A stretch of 64,000 bases of DNA from Flavobacterium psychrophilum (GTDB lineage Bacteria; Bacteroidota; Bacteroidia; Flavobacteriales; Flavobacteriaceae), in assembly GCA_945890865.1 (NCBI GenBank), contig CAMDDB010000002.1, forward strand, positions 62,001-126,000. Reading direction: 5' to 3'. Under the pieces are notes generated by a model. The model was not told the origin of the DNA. It did no database searches and worked only from the letters and a program-made list of their open reading frames with translations. The position numbers and the translations under genes are program-made. Shown here piece by piece: positions 16,790 through 46,240 of the stretch. How positions within the stretch are numbered: position 1 is the first letter of the stretch; every line of letters starts with the position of its first letter.

Positions 16790-16814
16790 TTTGTCGCTTA
16801 CTTAAATCAATTTG

Positions 16815-16844
16815 CGAAAGTAATGATTTAAAGGTAAAAGGCAA
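16815..16844 (-). promoter_or_regulatory. ileS promoter overlapping a heptamer repeat
   Basis: On the minus strand TTG (16844-16842), exactly 19 bases, then TACTTTCG (16822-16815), one mismatch from TAnnTTTG, 25 bases before ileS. The -33 TTG and part of the spacer lie inside the 7-base tandem repeat at 16830-16864. Confidence 0.5.
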
Positions 16845-16864
16845 AAGGTAAAAGGTAAAAGTTG
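16830..16864. repeat. 7-base-period tandem repeat, consensus AAAGGTA
   Basis: Five consecutive 7-base units: AAAGGTA, AAAGGCA, AAAGGTA, AAAGGTA, AAAGTTG. It lies between the recO stop and the ileS start and ends 4 bases before the recO stop codon. Confidence 0.85.
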
Positions 16865-16868
16865 TCGC

Positions 16869-23995: not shown

Positions 23996-24030
23996 AATCA
24001 CTATTCCCTGCTAACTAATTACTAAGAACT
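23996..24030. repeat. 7-base-period repeat, consensus AATNACT
   Basis: Five units AATCACT, ATTCCCT, GCTAACT, AATTACT, AAGAACT; every unit ends in CT. It lies just upstream of the yicC promoter box. Confidence 0.7.
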
Positions 24031-24923: not shown

Positions 24924-24930
24924 AACTATG

Positions 24931-25008
24931 TGCCGTAAGCTTTAGGCTTTGGGCAAAACGTAACAATAAAAAAAGCTTAAAGCATATTGCCTAAAGCCTA
25001 AAGTAATA
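24931..25008. repeat. paired 7-base-period arrays forming a stem-loop before gmk
   Basis: First array 24931-24958: TGCCGTA, AGCTTTA, GGCTTTG, GGCAAAA. Second array 24974-25008: AGCTTAA, AGCATAT, TGCCTAA, AGCCTAA, AGTAATA. The two are roughly complementary: CTTTAGGCTTTGGGC (24940-24954) pairs with GCCTAAAGCCTAAAG (24989-25003) over 15 bp with one G-U, leaving a 34-base loop. The stem ends 8 bases before the gmk start. Confidence 0.8.
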
Positions 25009-25011
25009 AAA

Positions 25012-32836: not shown

Positions 32837-33859
32837 TTATATACTCGATTTGAATTGCTCTAAGAAACGCACATCGTTTTCATAAAACATACGAATATCG
32901 CCAATTTGGTACAACAACATCGCAATACGCTCTACGCCCATTCCAAAAGCAAAACCGGTGTGCTCGTCTGGATTGATATCGCAGTTTTTCAAAACATTAG
33001 GATCGACCATACCGCAACCGCCAATTTCTAACCAACCGGTTCCTTTGGTAATTCGGTAATCGGTTTCGGTTTTTAATCCCCAATAAATATCGATCTCCGC
33101 ACTGGGCTCTGTAAATGGAAAATAGGATGGACGCAAACGAATTTTTGACTTCCCGAACATTTCTTTCGTGAAATACAACAAGGTTTGTTTTAAATCGGCA
33201 AAAGAAACGTCTTTATCAATATACAAACCTTCCACTTGATGAAAAATACAGTGTGAACGTGATGAAACGGCCTCGTTACGAAATACCCTTCCTGGAGAAA
33301 TTGTACGAATGGGCGGTTTGTTGTTTTCCATGTAACGTACTTGCACGGATGAAGTATGCGTTCGCAACAAAACATCCGGATTAGTTTGAATGAAAAACGT
33401 ATCCTGCATGTCTCGTGCTGGATGATATTCTGGTAAATTTAAAGCGGTGAAATTATGCCAATCGTCTTCGATTTCTGGCCCTTCAGATACGTTGAAACCT
33501 AAAGTTGAAAAAATATCAATCATTTGGTTTTTTACAATTGAAATAGGGTGTCGAGAACCTACATTGATTGATTCCCCCGGACGTGTGGTGTCGCCGTAAA
33601 TGCCTTTTGCTACTTCTTTATTCTCTAAAGCGTCTTGAATGGTTTTTACTTTGTCCTCTGCCGAAGTTTTCAATTCGTTGATCACTTGTCCAAATGCCGA
33701 CTTTTGTTCGTTTGGAACATTTTTAAATTCGGCGAAAAAGTCTTTCAATAAGCCTTTACTTCCTAAATACTTGATTCGGAAAGCTTCTAATTGTTCTTTG
33801 CTATCGGTTTGAAAAGCGGTTACTTCTTCAATATGGGCTTTAATCGTTTCTATCATCAC
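32837..33859 (-). CDS. pheS: phenylalanyl-tRNA synthetase alpha subunit
   Basis: This 340-residue subunit carries the class II catalytic core that, with PheT, charges tRNA-Phe. It has the N-terminal coiled-coil arm (residues 1-90), motif 1 around HPISIVKNQMIDIF, motif 2 in LLRTHTSSVQVRYM and GRVFRNEAVSSRSHCIFHQVEG, and motif 3 in GFAFGMGVERIAMLLYQIGD. Length is typical. The two N-terminal methionines are adjacent, so the start is uncertain by one residue. pheT is not next to it, as is common in this phylum. A TAAATTTG box lies just upstream. Confidence 0.96.
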   Translation of the reverse strand: MMIETIKAHIEEVTAFQTDSKEQLEAFRIKYLGSKGLLKDFFAEFKNVPNEQKSAFGQVINELKTSAEDKVKTIQDALENKEVAKGIYGDTTRPGESINVGSRHPISIVKNQMIDIFSTLGFNVSEGPEIEDDWHNFTALNLPEYHPARDMQDTFFIQTNPDVLLRTHTSSVQVRYMENNKPPIRTISPGRVFRNEAVSSRSHCIFHQVEGLYIDKDVSFADLKQTLLYFTKEMFGKSKIRLRPSYFPFTEPSAEIDIYWGLKTETDYRITKGTGWLEIGGCGMVDPNVLKNCDINPDEHTGFAFGMGVERIAMLLYQIGDIRMFYENDVRFLEQFKSSI

Positions 33860-33875
33860 GCTGGGTATAAAGGTG

Positions 33876-33883
33876 CAAATTTA
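33876..33883 (-). promoter_or_regulatory. -7 promoter box for pheS
   Basis: TAAATTTG on the minus strand, 16 bases before pheS. The expected -33 position falls in the 7-base repeat at 33890-33924, which contains no TTG on this strand. Confidence 0.4.
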
Positions 33884-33889
33884 GTAAAA

Positions 33890-33924
33890 AGTTCGGAGTT
33901 GGAAGTTGGAAGTTCAGAGTTTTT
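33890..33924. repeat. 7-base-period repeat, consensus AGTTNGA
   Basis: Five units AGTTCGG, AGTTGGA, AGTTGGA, AGTTCAG, AGTTTTT; all five begin AGTT. It sits directly upstream of the pheS -7 box. Confidence 0.85.
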
Positions 33925-33929
33925 TAAGT

Positions 33930-33950
33930 AAACCGTCACCGTCACGGTTT
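33930..33950 (-). terminator. stem-loop after the 118-residue unknown gene, possible terminator
   Basis: AAACCGT and ACGGTTT form a perfect 7-bp stem with a 7-base loop (CACCGTC). On the minus strand the downstream bases are ACTTAAAAAA, without a T-run, so terminator function is doubtful; on the plus strand only one further T follows. Confidence 0.4.
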
Positions 33951-33985
33951 TCAGAATTTACAAATTTGTCAACTGCGACTGAAAA

Positions 33986-34342
33986 CTAATTTATCAACTC
34001 TTTCTCTAAAAAGTAACTCACGATGGCTTCTTTCATTAACACGGCTTGTTCCCCTGCTTTTAGTGGCGGCAATTCTTCTTTTGCTTTATAATGGGGCCAA
34101 CCTTCGTTATCAAAATATTCAAATTCATAATATCCATAAGGTTCTAGTAAACGACAAATGGCAATGTGCATCAGGTTTACTTTTTCGTCTTTCTTAAAAG
34201 TAGCATGAATTTTTCCTAATTCTTGCACCCCTATTAAGTAGATTATCCCTTCTAAATCGAGATCTTCTCCGCCTGAAAATTTTTCTGATAATATGTTGAC
34301 AACGCTTTCCCAACGCTGTTTTAATTGTTCGTCTCTTGACAT
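33986..34342 (-). CDS. conserved small soluble protein of unknown function
   Basis: This 118-residue protein has no signal peptide, membrane segment or recognised domain. It is mostly helical in appearance at both ends (DEQLKQRWESVVNILSEKFS; EQAVLMKEAIVSYFLEKELIN) with a central aromatic patch YGYYEFEYFDNEGWPHYKAKEELP. I do not recognise a function. It stands alone on the minus strand upstream of pheS with its own promoter, divergent from cvpA. Absence of basic patches argues against simple nucleic-acid binding. Confidence 0.8.
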   Translation of the reverse strand: MSRDEQLKQRWESVVNILSEKFSGGEDLDLEGIIYLIGVQELGKIHATFKKDEKVNLMHIAICRLLEPYGYYEFEYFDNEGWPHYKAKEELPPLKAGEQAVLMKEAIVSYFLEKELIN

Positions 34343-34350
34343 TTTTTTGG

Positions 34351-34378
34351 GTTTTAAGTGATGGGTGATGGGTTCCTA
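34351..34378. repeat. 7-base-period repeat with GTGATGG units
   Basis: Units GTTTTAA, GTGATGG, GTGATGG, GTTCCTA; two are identical. It lies in the 5' region of the 118-residue unknown gene. Confidence 0.55.
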
Positions 34379-34408
34379 TGACCTATTTACCGATAACCAA
34401 ATTTCATG

Positions 34409-34440
34409 CAAAGATAACAACAGAAAACCAGTTTCAGCAA
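34409..34440 (-). promoter_or_regulatory. promoter of the 118-residue unknown gene
   Basis: On the minus strand TTG (34440-34438), 21 bases, TATCTTTG (34416-34409). The start codon is 66 bases further on, leaving a leader that includes the GTGATGG repeat. Confidence 0.55.
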
Positions 34441-34446
34441 TTCTTT

Positions 34447-34454
34447 TATCTTTG
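34447..34454 (+). promoter_or_regulatory. -7 promoter box for cvpA
   Basis: TATCTTTG, 23 bases before cvpA, back to back with the minus-strand promoter at 34409-34440. No TTG at the normal distance. Confidence 0.4.
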
Positions 34455-34477
34455 TTCTTTCATCTATTTTTTTTACT

Positions 34478-34999
34478 ATGGTTTTTATTGATATTGTTTT
34501 TGCTATTTTATTAGGTTTTGCCGTGTATAAAGGATTTAAAAACGGCTTTTTTGTGGAAGTCGCTTCCTTTGTAGGATTATTGGTTGGAATTTATTTTGCC
34601 CTTAAATTTTCGAATTGGATGGGTGCGGTTTTTTCAGAAATCGTTCCTACTTGGAATCCTAATTATATTAAAATAACAGCCTTTGTCATTACCTTTTTGT
34701 TGGTGGTAATTGGCATTCACCTGAGTGCAAAAATTATAACAAAAATGGCCGATTTTGCTTTTCTTGGTTGGTTTAACAAATTGGCTGGGGGCGTTTTTTG
34801 TGTAATGAAAACAATTTTAGCATTAAGTATAGTGCTCATTATTGTTGAAAAAATAAACAATGATAACCTAATAATTTCAAGAGAAACGAAAGAGCATTCT
34901 ATTTTTTATCAACCCATTCAAAATAGTTCAAAATTGATTTATCCCAAATTGGAGGGTTGGTATACGGGATTGAAGTCGGAAATAAAGAGTGAGGGATAA
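34478..34999 (+). CDS. cvpA: CvpA family membrane protein
   Basis: This 173-residue inner-membrane protein matches the CvpA family, needed for colicin V production in E. coli and linked more generally to envelope stress tolerance. It has four hydrophobic segments: FIDIVFAILLGFAVYKGFKNG, EVASFVGLLVGIYFALKFS, ITAFVITFLLVVIGIHLSA and LAGGVFCVMKTILALSIVLII. The conserved Y-K-G-x-x-x-G-F turn after the first helix is present. It is a single-gene unit, convergent with batE. Confidence 0.9.
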   Translation: MVFIDIVFAILLGFAVYKGFKNGFFVEVASFVGLLVGIYFALKFSNWMGAVFSEIVPTWNPNYIKITAFVITFLLVVIGIHLSAKIITKMADFAFLGWFNKLAGGVFCVMKTILALSIVLIIVEKINNDNLIISRETKEHSIFYQPIQNSSKLIYPKLEGWYTGLKSEIKSEG

Positions 35000-41999: not shown

Positions 42000-42866
42000 T
42001 TAATTTCTCGCTTTAAAATAGCTTAATAATTTTGTTACAAAGCTTTCATCTACTCTTGAACTTAAGGTTCCGGCCCCACATTTTGAAAAGATATCTTTAA
42101 AATAAGACACATTCTCAAGATGATATTTCTCATAGTTTTGACGAACCGCTTTTGAATTGGTATCCACTACTAAGGTTTCTCCGGTTTCGGCATCTAAGAG
42201 GTTTACAATTCCAATATTGGGGAGGCGTTCTTCTCTGGCATCAAATACTCTTATTCCGGTAACATCATGACGCTTTGCTGCAATTTTTAAAGTGTGTTCG
42301 TAGGATGTTGTCATAAAATCGGAAATCACAAAAACAATCGCTTTCTTTTTCATCACGCTTGATAAATATTTCAAGGCATGTGACAAATCGGTTTTTTTGC
42401 TTTTGGGTTCAAATTCGATCAATTCACGAATGATCCGTAAAACGTGCGATTTCCCTTTTTTAGGTGCGATATATAATTCGATTTGATCTGAAAACAACAG
42501 TAACCCAATTTTATCATTATTTTGGGTGGCCGAAAAAGCCAATGTAGCTGCTATTTCAGTAATCATGTCTCTTTTCTGTTGATTTTTTGTACCAAAACTT
42601 TCCGAACCCGAAATATCCACGAGCAACATCATTGTCAATTCGCGCTCTTCTTCAAAGACCTTAACAAAAGGTTCGTTATAGCGCGCAGTGACGTTCCAAT
42701 CAATCGCACGAACATCGTCTCCGTATTGGTATTGACGCACTTCCGAAAACGTCATCCCTCGTCCTTTAAAAGATGTGTGGTATTCGCCCGAAAAGATGTG
42801 ATCGCTCAATCTTCGGGTTTTGATTTCAATTTTTCGAACTTTCTTTAGAATTTCCTTGGTATCCAT
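42000..42866 (-). CDS. DUF58 domain protein with VWA fold
   Basis: This 288-residue cytoplasmic protein has the DUF58 signature GDDVRAIDWNVTAR at 49-62 and an embedded VWA-like domain with DISGS at 84-88. DUF58 proteins almost always accompany MoxR ATPases, as here. It ends 5 bases before the next gene and follows moxR by 100 bases that are filled with two 7-base-period arrays. Its role is inferred from operon partners. Confidence 0.94.
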   Translation of the reverse strand: MDTKEILKKVRKIEIKTRRLSDHIFSGEYHTSFKGRGMTFSEVRQYQYGDDVRAIDWNVTARYNEPFVKVFEEERELTMMLLVDISGSESFGTKNQQKRDMITEIAATLAFSATQNNDKIGLLLFSDQIELYIAPKKGKSHVLRIIRELIEFEPKSKKTDLSHALKYLSSVMKKKAIVFVISDFMTTSYEHTLKIAAKRHDVTGIRVFDAREERLPNIGIVNLLDAETGETLVVDTNSKAVRQNYEKYHLENVSYFKDIFSKCGAGTLSSRVDESFVTKLLSYFKARN

Positions 42867-42872
42867 AATTTA

Positions 42873-42907
42873 GTTTCGGGTTTCAGGTTTAAAGTTTCGG
42901 GTTTGAA
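42873..42907. repeat. 7-base-period repeat, consensus GTTTCGG
   Basis: Five units GTTTCGG, GTTTCAG, GTTTAAA, GTTTCGG, GTTTGAA, all starting GTTT; a weaker sixth (TTTGGAG) follows. Between moxR and the DUF58 gene. Confidence 0.88.
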
Positions 42908-42932
42908 TTTGGAGTTAAAATAACAAACATTT

Positions 42933-42967
42933 AACTCGTAACTCGTAACTTTTAACTCGTAACTAGT
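42933..42967. repeat. 7-base-period repeat, consensus AACTCGT
   Basis: Five units AACTCGT, AACTCGT, AACTTTT, AACTCGT, AACTAGT, three of them identical, ending at the first base of the moxR stop codon. Confidence 0.9.
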
Positions 42968-43971
42968 TAAGGCACTTCGATTTCGTTTACAATTTTGCTA
43001 ATGATGTCTTCCGTTGTCACATTCTCTGCTTCGGCTTCATAGGTGATTCCGATTCTGTGACGCAATACATCATATACTACCGCGCGCACATCTTCTGGAA
43101 TGACATACCCTCTTCGTTTAATAAAAGCATAGCATTTTGCGGCTGTTGCCAAATTGATACTTCCTCTTGGCGAAGCACCAAAACTGATCAACGGTTTTAG
43201 ATTTTCTAATTTGTATTTTTCGGGATAACGCGTAGCAAAAATAATATCTAAGATGTACTTTTCGATTTTCTCGTCCATATATACTTCACGAACGGCCTCT
43301 TGTGCTTTGAGTATTTGATCCAAAGAAACCACTTCGTTTATTTTTTCGTAGGCTCCTTTTAAATTTTGACGAATCACCAAACGTTCGTCGTCCATTTTAG
43401 GATAATCAATAACCACTTTTAACATGAATCGGTCTACTTGAGCCTCAGGCAAAGGATATGTCCCTTCTTGATCCACTGGGTTTTGAGTAGCCATTACTAA
43501 AAAGGGTTTGTCTAATTTAAAGGTTTCATCGCCAATGGTAACCTGCTTTTCTTGCATAGCTTCTAATAAGGCAGACTGCACTTTAGCTGGCGCACGATTG
43601 ATTTCGTCGGCCAAAACGAAATTAGCAAAAATGGGCCCTTTTCGAATGGTGAAGTCGTTTTGCTTGATGTTATAAATCATGGTTCCGACCACATCGGCAG
43701 GTAATAAATCTGGGGTAAACTGTATGCGGCTAAACGAACCATGAACCGCCTGCGATAGTGTATTAATTGCTAAGGTTTTTGCTAAACCAGGCACCCCTTC
43801 TAATAAGATGTGGCCTTGTCCTAATAATCCTATCAATAATCGTTCAACCATGTGCTTTTGACCAATAATTACTTTATTCATTTCAAGGGTAAGCAAGTCA
43901 ATAAAAGCACTTTCACGTTCTATCTTTTCGTTGATGGCTCTAATGTCTAAGGTCGAGGTATTTTCTTCCAT
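42967..43971 (-). CDS. MoxR-family AAA ATPase
   Basis: This 334-residue cytoplasmic AAA+ protein has the Walker A motif GVPGLAKT at 59-66, Walker B in FVLADEINRAPAKVQSALLEAMQE, the sensor 1 region VMATQNPVDQEGTYPLPEAQ and the sensor 2 lid with SFGASPRGSINLATAAK. MoxR ATPases act as chaperone-like partners of VWA proteins; here it is the first gene of the moxR-DUF58-unknown-batABCDE operon. The start at 43971 gives a full-length protein. A TAAAATTTG sequence with a three-base spacer lies upstream but is not a clean promoter box. Confidence 0.95.
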   Translation of the reverse strand: MEENTSTLDIRAINEKIERESAFIDLLTLEMNKVIIGQKHMVERLLIGLLGQGHILLEGVPGLAKTLAINTLSQAVHGSFSRIQFTPDLLPADVVGTMIYNIKQNDFTIRKGPIFANFVLADEINRAPAKVQSALLEAMQEKQVTIGDETFKLDKPFLVMATQNPVDQEGTYPLPEAQVDRFMLKVVIDYPKMDDERLVIRQNLKGAYEKINEVVSLDQILKAQEAVREVYMDEKIEKYILDIIFATRYPEKYKLENLKPLISFGASPRGSINLATAAKCYAFIKRRGYVIPEDVRAVVYDVLRHRIGITYEAEAENVTTEDIISKIVNEIEVP

Positions 43972-44149
43972 TTTTAGGTTTAATTTAATACTTTGAAATT
44001 AATAACAAATTTTAACGGTGCAAATTGTGATTTTTTTTACTTATTCGTTGTTAACATTGCGTTAAAAAACAATAAAAAAAGGGGAATTTATGCCGCATTT
44101 GTGATTCTAATTTTATAATTTTAAGAAAAATTTAAAAATTACAACGACT

Positions 44150-45022: not shown

Positions 45023-45049
45023 AAAAACAATTAGTGAAAGCGATTGGTT

Positions 45050-45084
45050 TCTCTTGTCACTTGTTGCGTGTTACTAATCAATTA
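45050..45084. repeat. 7-base-period repeat, consensus TCACTTG
   Basis: Five units TCTCTTG, TCACTTG, TTGCGTG, TTACTAA, TCAATTA, each starting with T. Degenerate; it ends 4 bases before the next gene's start. Confidence 0.55.
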
Positions 45085-45088
45085 AAAT

Positions 45089-46240
45089 ATGATCAACAAG
45101 CGTCTTTTAATCAAAAATTTATTAGCTCACAATGATGAGAATAGTTTTTATGATAAAAAACGCCAATTGAATCTGCATTCAAAAGAAGGAAAAGCAAAAT
45201 TTTTAAAGCATATATGCGCACTTTCTAATTCAAATCCTAGCAACAATTCGTATATTGTAGTTGGTGTAGAAGACACTACGAATGAAATTGTGGGGGATGA
45301 TTTTTTTGATGATAGTCAGATTCAAAATTTGGTCAATGCTTATTTGGAAAATCCGCCAAAAATTCAATATGAAAACGTTCCTTTCCCTAATTTACCGAAA
45401 GACAAAGTGGTAGGATTAGTTACTATTAAACCCAAATCTAAAACATCGTATTTCAAAAAAGGAATTCATACAATAGTTGCTAATAGCGTGTATGTTAGGA
45501 AAGGAAGTAATACTTCTCCCACTTTCGAAAAAATCCCCTATTCAAAACAAAATGTCGAAACGGTTATTCGTTTAGAAAATAACTCCCGAAATAGCATTTC
45601 TTTTACCTTAGAGAGTGTCTTAGATTTTATCAACAACAAACACAAAGATTTAGAATCGAATTATACCGTTTTTAAAGAACTTTTTGTGGTCTGTTGGGCA
45701 GGAAATAAGAAAAAAGTTAGAGATCATATTTACTTTTCAAGAGTTGATATTGAGTTGATTAACGAACAAGTAAAATTGTTCTATTCTGCCCTTGATGAAG
45801 TAAGTATATCATTTGATGAAGAATCATTTTCTATAACCGAATATGTAAGTTTGGGATTAAATGATAAAACCACTTATTACCCACTAGAAAAAGTAACCAT
45901 TCGATTTTTTGATAATGGCTATTACAAAATAGACTCATTAATGCTATTTGAGCCGCCGCAATACAATAAAAAAATGTTGCATCACATTTACAATTCCAAT
46001 ATTGTTCTTCTTAACAAACTTCAAAAAGGAAATAATTTAAATGAAAATGAAAAAAAAGAATTGCTCAATGTGCCACATACTCTAATGATCTGTTATTTGA
46101 ATGGATTTGAAGAAGCCAAACAAAAACTAATTGACACAAAAACGTTTTTGAAAACCTATGATAATCCCCTGGTATATTTGTCTTTTAAAGAAGTGATGCG
46201 AATTTTAAGAAAAATGAAATACAACACAAAGAATGAGTAG
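45089..46240 (+). CDS. Schlafen/AlbA_2-type protein
   Basis: This 383-residue cytoplasmic protein carries an AlbA_2 (Schlafen core) domain in about residues 15-145, shown by LKHICALSNSNPSNNSYIVVGVED followed by IVGDDFF and, later, SVYVRKGSNTSPTFE. These domains are often labelled ATP-binding, but no ATP motif is visible; relatives include tRNA/rRNA-cleaving Schlafen proteins and transcription regulators. Residues 150-383 contain mixed beta segments (SISFDEESFSITEYVSLGL; KVTIRFFDNGYYKIDSLM) and helices and match nothing I recognise. The next gene, a PPP-type phosphatase, begins 8 bases before this gene ends, so the two are coupled. Confidence 0.8.
   Translation: MINKRLLIKNLLAHNDENSFYDKKRQLNLHSKEGKAKFLKHICALSNSNPSNNSYIVVGVEDTTNEIVGDDFFDDSQIQNLVNAYLENPPKIQYENVPFPNLPKDKVVGLVTIKPKSKTSYFKKGIHTIVANSVYVRKGSNTSPTFEKIPYSKQNVETVIRLENNSRNSISFTLESVLDFINNKHKDLESNYTVFKELFVVCWAGNKKKVRDHIYFSRVDIELINEQVKLFYSALDEVSISFDEESFSITEYVSLGLNDKTTYYPLEKVTIRFFDNGYYKIDSLMLFEPPQYNKKMLHHIYNSNIVLLNKLQKGNNLNENEKKELLNVPHTLMICYLNGFEEAKQKLIDTKTFLKTYDNPLVYLSFKEVMRILRKMKYNTKNE

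Follow-up and report, generated by a model that had tools for sequence, protein, structure and literature searches.

Inverted heptamer arrays in operon-like gaps of Flavobacteriaceae: a recurrent stop-to-start layout of free sequence, with a possible role in translational coupling

Two short tandem repeats of Flavobacterium psychrophilum, lying between a MoxR-type ATPase gene and a DUF58 gene, have the same seven-base period and almost no sequence in common. The question raised by this locus is what keeps the unit length and the arrangement when the unit itself is free to change. The window analyzed here is the whole stretch of 64,000 nucleotides that contains the locus. A sequence-only reading of it had reported two period-7 arrays, at 42873 and 42933, and Tandem Repeats Finder recovers both (42873-42904, GTTTNNN, 4.6 copies; 42932-42964, AACTCGT-like, 4.7 copies). 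What that reading missed is the architecture: the two arrays are the inverted arms of a single element that fills the gap between the two genes, G-richer after the stop codon and C-richer before the start codon. The features concerned are as follows.

42867..42966, minus strand: MoxR-DUF58 intergenic gap of 100 nt, with a predicted hairpin of 29 bp in broken helices
42932..42964, minus strand: stop-proximal, G-richer arm; mRNA strand AGTTACG AGTTAAA AGTTACG AGTTACG AGTTA
42873..42904, minus strand: start-proximal, C-richer arm; mRNA strand AAACCCG AAACTTT AAACCTG AAACCCG AAAC
42967..43971, minus strand: upstream gene, MoxR-type AAA ATPase (Pfam AAA_3, 1.6e-65)
42000..42866, minus strand: downstream gene, DUF58/VWA protein (Pfam DUF58, 1.6e-86)
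43972..44149, minus strand: array-free control gap upstream of moxR, in which 178 of 178 columns align with relative L001

The stem of the predicted hairpin has its base 1 nt past the stop codon and 4 nt ahead of the start codon. It should be noted that the window carries one of the weaker copies of the element: the two arms have only GTT:AAC in common, the fold has a z of -1.6 in one test and of -2.3 in another, and the arm duplex, at -0.37 kcal/mol per nt, misses the cut of -0.45 that is applied below. With respect to intrinsic terminator features, the stems in the MoxR gap of the window and of most relatives are AT-rich and have no U run. Rfam returns no match above the gathering score anywhere in the window.

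The heptamer unit length is enriched over other periods, both in the window and in the loci of relatives. Mean identity at lag 7 in the window's gaps (31 gaps, 3.5 kb) is 0.347, compared with 0.306 after shuffling (z 5.0); lags 14 and 21 give z values of 4.1 and 2.1, and lags 6 and 8 values of 1.6 and 1.9. Scored as segments (threshold 12, 30 gaps), the window holds five period-7 arrays, and dinucleotide shuffles hold 0.2. Relatives were sampled by one scan with the MoxR protein, which yielded 80 loci (labelled L###; 1.59 Mb, 879 gaps, 124 kb of gap), most of which share ancestry and come from genomes named Flavobacterium, Winogradskyella, Aquimarina, Maribacter, and other Flavobacteriaceae. 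In these loci z reaches 27.7 at lag 7 and 9.5 at lag 8, and 119 period-7 arrays are found against 4.6 in shuffles. An excess at lag 7 over shuffles was the check proposed in the sequence-only reading, and it is present in both samples. Equal enrichment at lags 6 and 8, which that reading had said would count against it, is not seen at lag 6, whereas period 8 is a weaker second signal (32 arrays against 4.0 in shuffles of the 80 loci); array counts at periods 5, 6, 9, 10, and 11 are at chance in the same 879 gaps. Gaps shorter than 30 nt, longer than 1200-1500 nt, or containing N were left out, and gene ends throughout are those of simple longest-ORF calls made here, not of annotation.

Independent 20-kb stretches of further genomes (labelled G###) give period-7 arrays in excess of shuffles in G003 (19 against 1.8, and 16 against 1.2 in a second sample), G001 (15 against 1.7), and G006 (6 against 0.8). 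G074 has six against 1.4, plus seven arrays of period 8, and in G004 period 8 outnumbers period 7 by ten to four. Four small samples from other genomes contain three period-7 arrays (G039), one (G101), and none (G109 and G013). No period-7 array was found at the same threshold in 150 kb (80 gaps) of E. coli K-12.

The units within an array have a common core and vary elsewhere. This was measured on 127 of 153 arrays, those longer than 60 nt, shorter than 28 nt, or with fewer than four mismatches having been excluded. Column variance within these arrays is 1.10, compared with 0.83 in simulation (the maximum of 200 simulations being 0.92), and the longest run of invariant columns is 2.20, compared with 1.51. 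Thus, arrays retain a contiguous core while the remainder of the unit is variable. The core is not the same everywhere. The suggestion that ACT/AGT is shared holds in part: ACTNNNN exceeds a backward control in three of six genomes (29 against 2, 25 against 0, and 37 against 7), the others being G006 (52 against 43), G005 (zero of both), and G001, where the relation is reversed (24 against 170). A strict ACT core for every array is rejected, since cores differ and G001 is richer in the backward control pattern. At the MoxR gap alone, units by species include GTTTCAA, GATTTTA, CAGTATT, AGTAATT, and AGCTTTA, among others, and the second arm contains the reverse complement of the same core.

Arms fit their own partners. 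In the pair tests, right arms were swapped between sites or species as a control; the distant genomes G013, G039, and G101 were excluded, as were arrays longer than 60 nt, which were also left out of the orientation tests. Across 22 two-array gaps of the genome stretches, the duplex with the own partner averages -0.628 kcal/mol per nt and the swapped duplex -0.323, a difference reached in 0 of 5000 permutations. At the MoxR gap, 24 of the 80 loci have two detected arrays, with values of -0.700 (own) and -0.387 (swapped; 0 of 2000); the ten of these loci with distinct left arms give -0.728 and -0.425 (0 of 2000). Each site therefore has a sequence mostly its own, on which its two arms agree. 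The earlier claim of a fixed unit length with free sequence, and of no single dispersed element, is upheld. Arm matching is predicted both by selection for pairing and by template-switch correction.

Placement is equally regular. Sixteen of the 22 two-array gaps are codirectional, four convergent, and two divergent. In 13 of the 16 codirectional gaps the arrays are flush with both gene ends (within 12 nt and within 15 nt); these 13 gaps are 51-143 nt long, and in ten of them the duplex is stronger than the cut of -0.45 kcal/mol per nt. The remaining three gaps measure 185, 370, and 450 nt, and all fall below the cut, one narrowly; among all codirectional gaps longer than 150 nt (293 of 942) no pair lies above it. 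In codirectional gaps, 59 of 67 and 24 of 26 start-proximal arrays are separated from the next gene by no more than 15 nt. The sequence-only reading had many arrays abutting a stop codon. Some do, but others adjoin a promoter-like core or the start codon of the following gene. Depletion of two-arm pairs in divergent gaps was also considered and set aside as not significant (12 of 1132 codirectional and convergent gaps, 1 of 282 divergent ones, p 0.48).

Base composition follows position as well. In codirectional gaps, read on the mRNA strand, G exceeds C in stop-proximal arrays by 55 to 13, compared with 229 to 246 in the array-free background, and C exceeds G in start-proximal arrays by 75 to 14, compared with 302 to 163 (ties, five arrays, excluded). 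The corresponding p-values, 2e-7 and 3e-4, are too small because many of the counted arrays are orthologous; the genome stretches and the window by themselves give 18 to 6 and 24 to 1. Convergent gaps are mixed, with C>G to G>C counts of 4 to 4 in the 80 loci and 0 to 5 in the genome stretches.

The MoxR-DUF58 gap was read in 80 relatives, at lengths of 42-194 nt, which with the window makes 81 genomes. Many of these gaps consist of two inverted arrays, one starting a few bases past the MoxR stop and the other stopping a few bases before the DUF58 start. A spanning hairpin, defined by at least 12 bp with at most 5 nt unpaired on the 5' side and at most 12 nt on the 3' side, is predicted in 51 of the 81 gaps, compared with 8.1 expected from dinucleotide shuffles; 30 gaps miss the definition. 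The excess is found in the closest group (27 of 32, compared with 3.6) and in the rest (24 of 49, compared with 5.1). The median unpaired length is 2 nt 3' of the stop and 6 nt 5' of the start, and of the 80 gaps folded, 74 have a minimum-energy structure whose pairing begins no more than 5 nt past the stop (the 194-nt gap of L041, left out of the first round for its length, was folded later). An outer hairpin of 12 bp or more is predicted in 66 of the 81 gaps; among these, longer gaps do not leave more unpaired sequence on the 3' side (rho 0.04, p 0.77) and leave slightly more on the 5' side (rho 0.25, p 0.04). In the alignable GTTT-class subset of nine gaps, 4 of 24 predicted pairs changed on both sides (covariation term +0.1). 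Distant Bacteroidota are often without a hairpin at this gap. Gap length in these organisms, considered as proof of bridging, proved mixed (3 to 151 nt at 18 loci with DUF58 identity below 60%) and was rejected as such.

Outside the MoxR gap, a strict test with a z cut-off finds spanning stems in 17 of 297 codirectional gaps of the genome stretches, compared with 1.9 in shuffles, and nine of the 17 show some period 7. Convergent gaps are enriched too (10 of 56, compared with 0.56), mostly in terminators, which are also frequent among the other hairpins in the gaps examined. A looser spanning test applied to the codirectional gaps of one genome gave no excess (14, compared with 16.05 in shuffles).

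The layout recurs at the MoxR gap in many species despite turnover of its sequence. Between the window and L001, identity is about 86% over the moxR-bearing stretch and 99% for the MoxR protein; the MoxR array gap is 54% identical, compared with 46% for shuffled sequence, while the next intergenic gap, the array-free control, is 89% identical. The comparison of orthologous gaps that the sequence-only reading had proposed thus reveals nearly complete replacement at this site. At a second site, between recO and ileS, units are different in three of the relatives compared and no array is present in two. Nevertheless, the window and G003 agree at 72 of 75 positions (96%) of the recO-ileS gap, its CTTTTAC array included; set beside the almost wholly changed MoxR gap, this shows turnover to be episodic.

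In a few genomes the MoxR gap is filled by palindromes unrelated to the heptamers. The outer stem in L046 has 20 bp and ends 0 nt past the stop and 3 nt before the start; for L041 the corresponding values are 16 bp, 9 nt, and 6 nt; and the gap of L091 resembles that of L046. Since the layout outlives the heptamer in these three clear cases, they are, in our opinion, a good argument for selection. The palindromes of L058 and L065 are closed by a mere 5-bp outer stem. Counting the MoxR gap, the palindrome motif has 5 copies in the genome of L046, 2 in L091, 6 in L058, and 13 in L041, and that of L065 does not recur in its own genome.

A further regularity concerns promoters. The sequence TAnnTTTG, which we take to be the Bacteroidota promoter motif, is absent from all 80 MoxR gaps and all 13 two-array gaps but occurs in 175 of 494 array-free gaps of similar length; one-array gaps have it in 5 of 36. 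Shuffles predict 5.0, 1.0, and 38.1 occurrences in the MoxR, two-array, and array-free gaps, respectively. The zero in 13 two-array gaps therefore fits composition, the contrast being one of enrichment elsewhere, and two-armed gaps are without the promoter enrichment of other gaps. They look operon-internal.

The sequence-only reading had explained the arrays by a copying or slippage mechanism of fixed unit length. That accounts for fixed length and free sequence; slippage alone does not explain the inverted paired arms, the flush placement at stop and start, or the strand rule. Our preferred explanation, offered tentatively, is that slippage supplies the arrays and that the predicted stop-to-start hairpin in the shared mRNA is kept by selection and couples translation of the second gene to that of the first. 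Slippage during replication, in steps that favor 7 and sometimes 8 bases, would create and recreate the arrays; being repeatedly remade in this way, they would have a unit that drifts fast and differs by site and species. Selection would retain any sequence that still pairs arm to arm, G-richer after the stop and C-richer before the start. With the fold in place, only a few bases of a 50-145 nt gap would stay unpaired, so that a stem ending a few bases 5' of the A-rich start might hold down initiation until a ribosome finishing at the first gene's stop opens the stem base and frees the start region. Such freeing would matter in a phylum without Shine-Dalgarno signals; the available text of one study describes Flavobacterium johnsoniae and the phylum as lacking these sequences, with initiation tuned by local structure and upstream nucleotides (PMC6847099). 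The wider generalization, a hairpin class of Flavobacteriaceae defined by layout alone, in which inverted heptamer arrays clamp a stop to the next start, the unit is rewritten on both arms between species while position and function are kept, and translation is coupled without Shine-Dalgarno sequences, is put forward with still more reserve.

A different account, which we regard as rather unlikely, dispenses with function altogether: slippage and template switching would act wherever the compact genome tolerates them, arms would arise by quasi-palindrome correction, and the period of 7 would come from the polymerase. The replacement of the MoxR gap next to a well-kept control gap is what such turnover predicts, and matched arms can be obtained through template switching without selection, but it is harder to see why the layout should then be held at one gap in 51 of 81 genomes, or why unrelated gap-spanning palindromes should substitute for the arrays in three. 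Flush placement would likewise follow from array growth inside a once-short operon gap; the strand rule is tied to gene ends, and promoters are missing from two-armed gaps, neither of which favors neutrality. In codirectional gaps of 45-150 nt, one-array cases exceed two-array cases by 36 to 13, as neutral turnover would allow, although some of the 36 contain two arms merged into one segment (for example, L133:15754 and L151:19619). According to the literature available, most genomes have heptamers as their most frequent longer repeat, a preference ascribed there to the polymerase. Period 7 is raised only mildly deep within coding DNA, with 15 segments against 2-8 at lags 4, 5, 8, 10, 11, and 13; as proof of a purely mutational origin this excess is too weak, because it is small and several of the segments are of low complexity.

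REP and BIME palindromes are intergenic hairpins, found in operons as well, that belong to sequence families dispersed through a genome. The present elements are like them in being predicted intergenic hairpins that also occur inside operons, and an element of this kind might stabilize, process, or insulate the upstream message independently of initiation at the next gene. We consider this doubtful, and less probable than a functionless origin. One sequence family at many sites, the REP/BIME trait, was not found: unlike REP arms, the present arms do not match those at other sites and fit their own partner best. Two-array gaps do lie after the stop codons of convergent genes in 4 of 22 cases, and in a 153-nt gap of L116 a period-7 hairpin sits at the stop codon with 70 nt remaining to the next start; yet in the 13 flush codirectional gaps the start-proximal end is held as tightly as the stop-proximal one, and the three exceptions are precisely the long gaps with duplexes below the cut, a range in which no codirectional pair exceeds it. 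Published observations lend this alternative some weight. In Xanthomonas, the mean distance of heptamer arrays is 28 nt to the ORF on their 5' side and 160 nt to the following one (PMC4692102). A review relates that, in a random-sequence screen, coupling was lower where structure was predicted just 3' of the upstream stop (PMC12548453), so that such hairpins would be insulators. The sign of the effect, coupling or insulation, would accordingly be debatable for our preferred reading too, structure after a stop being also compatible with insulators.

That start-proximal A/C-rich heptamers dock S1, Csp, or Csr-type proteins, as the accessible text of MacGregor (2015, PMC4679880) proposes for TAACTGA in Beggiatoaceae, is very improbable: it fits the closeness of start-proximal arrays to the next gene and a tandem TAACTGA-type array directly before the DUF58 start in L103, but the core varies by species (GTTT, GATT, CAGT, and AGCT classes, by eye), so that a sequence-specific binder would not fit, and arms match their own partner.

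No account of inverted heptamer arrays spanning operon gaps in flavobacteria was found in our literature searches, for which subscription journals were mostly beyond reach. Mrazek et al. 2007, as relayed by citing papers, reportedly described long simple sequence repeats with a heptanucleotide excess and explained them by slippage. The preferred unit length of 7 and the slippage explanation are shared with the present arrays; inverted arms, gene-end placement, and a strand rule are not mentioned in those passages that others cite. Closer in architecture are the GGGAATC repeats of Xanthomonas, which form 70 inverted pairs in one genome and 75 in another (Rehm et al. 2015, PMC4692102). They resemble the present arrays in having a heptamer unit whose positions 1-4 and 6 are conserved, in being for the most part intergenic and four units long, in their inverted pairs, few of them between divergent genes, and in length and sequence that vary among relatives. 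They differ in being a single G-rich unit genome-wide, studied as a G-quadruplex, whereas the flavobacterial core is AT-rich, differs by site and species, and belongs to arms that end at stop and start codons; no G-tract or G-quadruplex core is present in the window's units, whose cores are AGTT/AACT and GTTT/AAAC.

The claim that nothing of the kind had been described in this group was too strong. TAACTGA repeats are reported from Beggiatoaceae, Cyanobacteria, and five Bacteroidetes, beside other heptamers in Gramella, Aequorivita, and Elizabethkingia (MacGregor 2015, PMC4679880; accessible text). These share the 7-base period and often lie directly upstream of start codons; they are, however, defined by one sequence, and the main genome treated in that text has one indirect repeat against 169 direct sets. 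The TAACTGA unit is absent from the window, where units are AACTCGT, GTTTCAG, and others, and L103 was, by eye, the one case of a tandem array of that type, forming one unit class, among 28 MoxR gaps inspected from 30 wider loci. Unlike the Xanthomonas and TAACTGA arrays, the present ones are defined by no unit sequence. Heptamer arrays, inverted pairs in Xanthomonas included, are thus known, and what appears to be new, to judge from the literature searched, is a class of fixed layout and free sequence. As for mechanism, the available part of the review cited above lists RNA unfolding by upstream ribosomes as one of two coupling models, with a stem over the downstream initiation region that those ribosomes open (PMC12548453). 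The putative coupling considered here would be similar, and would differ from the single hairpins treated there in that its hairpins recur, are built of repeats, and belong to a phylum lacking Shine-Dalgarno sequences.

If the preferred reading is right, the element is an RNA structure made by slippage and maintained by pairing, in which the arrangement is conserved and the sequence is not. The joint translation of operon genes in Bacteroidota, on mRNAs without Shine-Dalgarno sequences, could then be tested directly. The reading would also explain the missing annotation, since a sequence family or covariance model can hardly gather such elements. Even on the functionless account, the arrays would be a clean system for heptamer slippage and arm correction, with one orthologous gap readable in 81 genomes.

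The sequence-only reading had extended the family to nine other sites of the window. Tandem Repeats Finder (score 30) recovers those at 16830, 24972, 33889, and 34358, and does not call those at 23996, 24931, 32802, 45050, and 51236; 24931 and 45050, though uncalled, lie within arms of predicted hairpins. Period-7 rows that had not been named appear at 2858, 7692, 10538, and 13361. The other sites with a defined feature are listed below.

16830..16861, minus strand: single CTTTTAC-type array between recO and ileS, adjoining a conserved promoter-like core
24924..25011, plus strand: a third gap, from a YicC-like endoribonuclease gene to the guanylate kinase gene, with inverted arms at 24936-24954 and 24972-25003
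33890..33921, minus strand: single AACTTCC-type array upstream of promoter-like TAAATTTG ahead of the phenylalanyl-tRNA synthetase gene (pheS)
34358..34373, minus strand: short CCATCAC array in a divergent gap, 15 nt ahead of a start codon
45023..45088, plus strand: gap from an aldo/keto reductase gene to a Schlafen AlbA_2/DUF5929 gene, with a predicted spanning hairpin (stem 45030-45078)

The gaps orthologous to 45023..45088 in L002, L004, L006, and L009 contain inverted heptamer arrays of two unit classes. The gene 3' of this gap (45089-46240) encodes a Schlafen AlbA_2 domain protein with DUF5929. The single arrays at recO-ileS and upstream of pheS adjoin a promoter-like core, and their units differ by species; the array at 33890..33921 is retained in L001 with three substitutions, none of them within AACT. 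The recO-ileS array (gap 16790-16868) includes a possible -33 TTG. The L002 gap orthologous to that at window position 33860 contains a palindrome, and window positions 33800-34500 gave no plasmid match.

Some minor observations on the relatives may be added. Palindromes of the types CCCCTAACCCC..., ATTCCTGCnnnnGCAGGAAT, and GTACAGACAAGTC... occupy gaps that have heptamer arrays in other species, namely the MoxR gaps of L041, L046, L058, L065, and L091, the gap at 7894 in L117, and the L002 gap just mentioned; the first two types recur within genomes. Period-8 arrays of the AAACGATT type are found at about 16.6-17.2 kb in L011, L012, L013, L017, L018, L020, L024, L031, and L052, as inverted pairs in several of these loci, the gaps being presumably orthologous by position alone. 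Finally, near-perfect TTCACTA arrays of about 11 units, single and without an inverted partner, are present in two genomes (L029:8884-8967 and L030:8886-8970).
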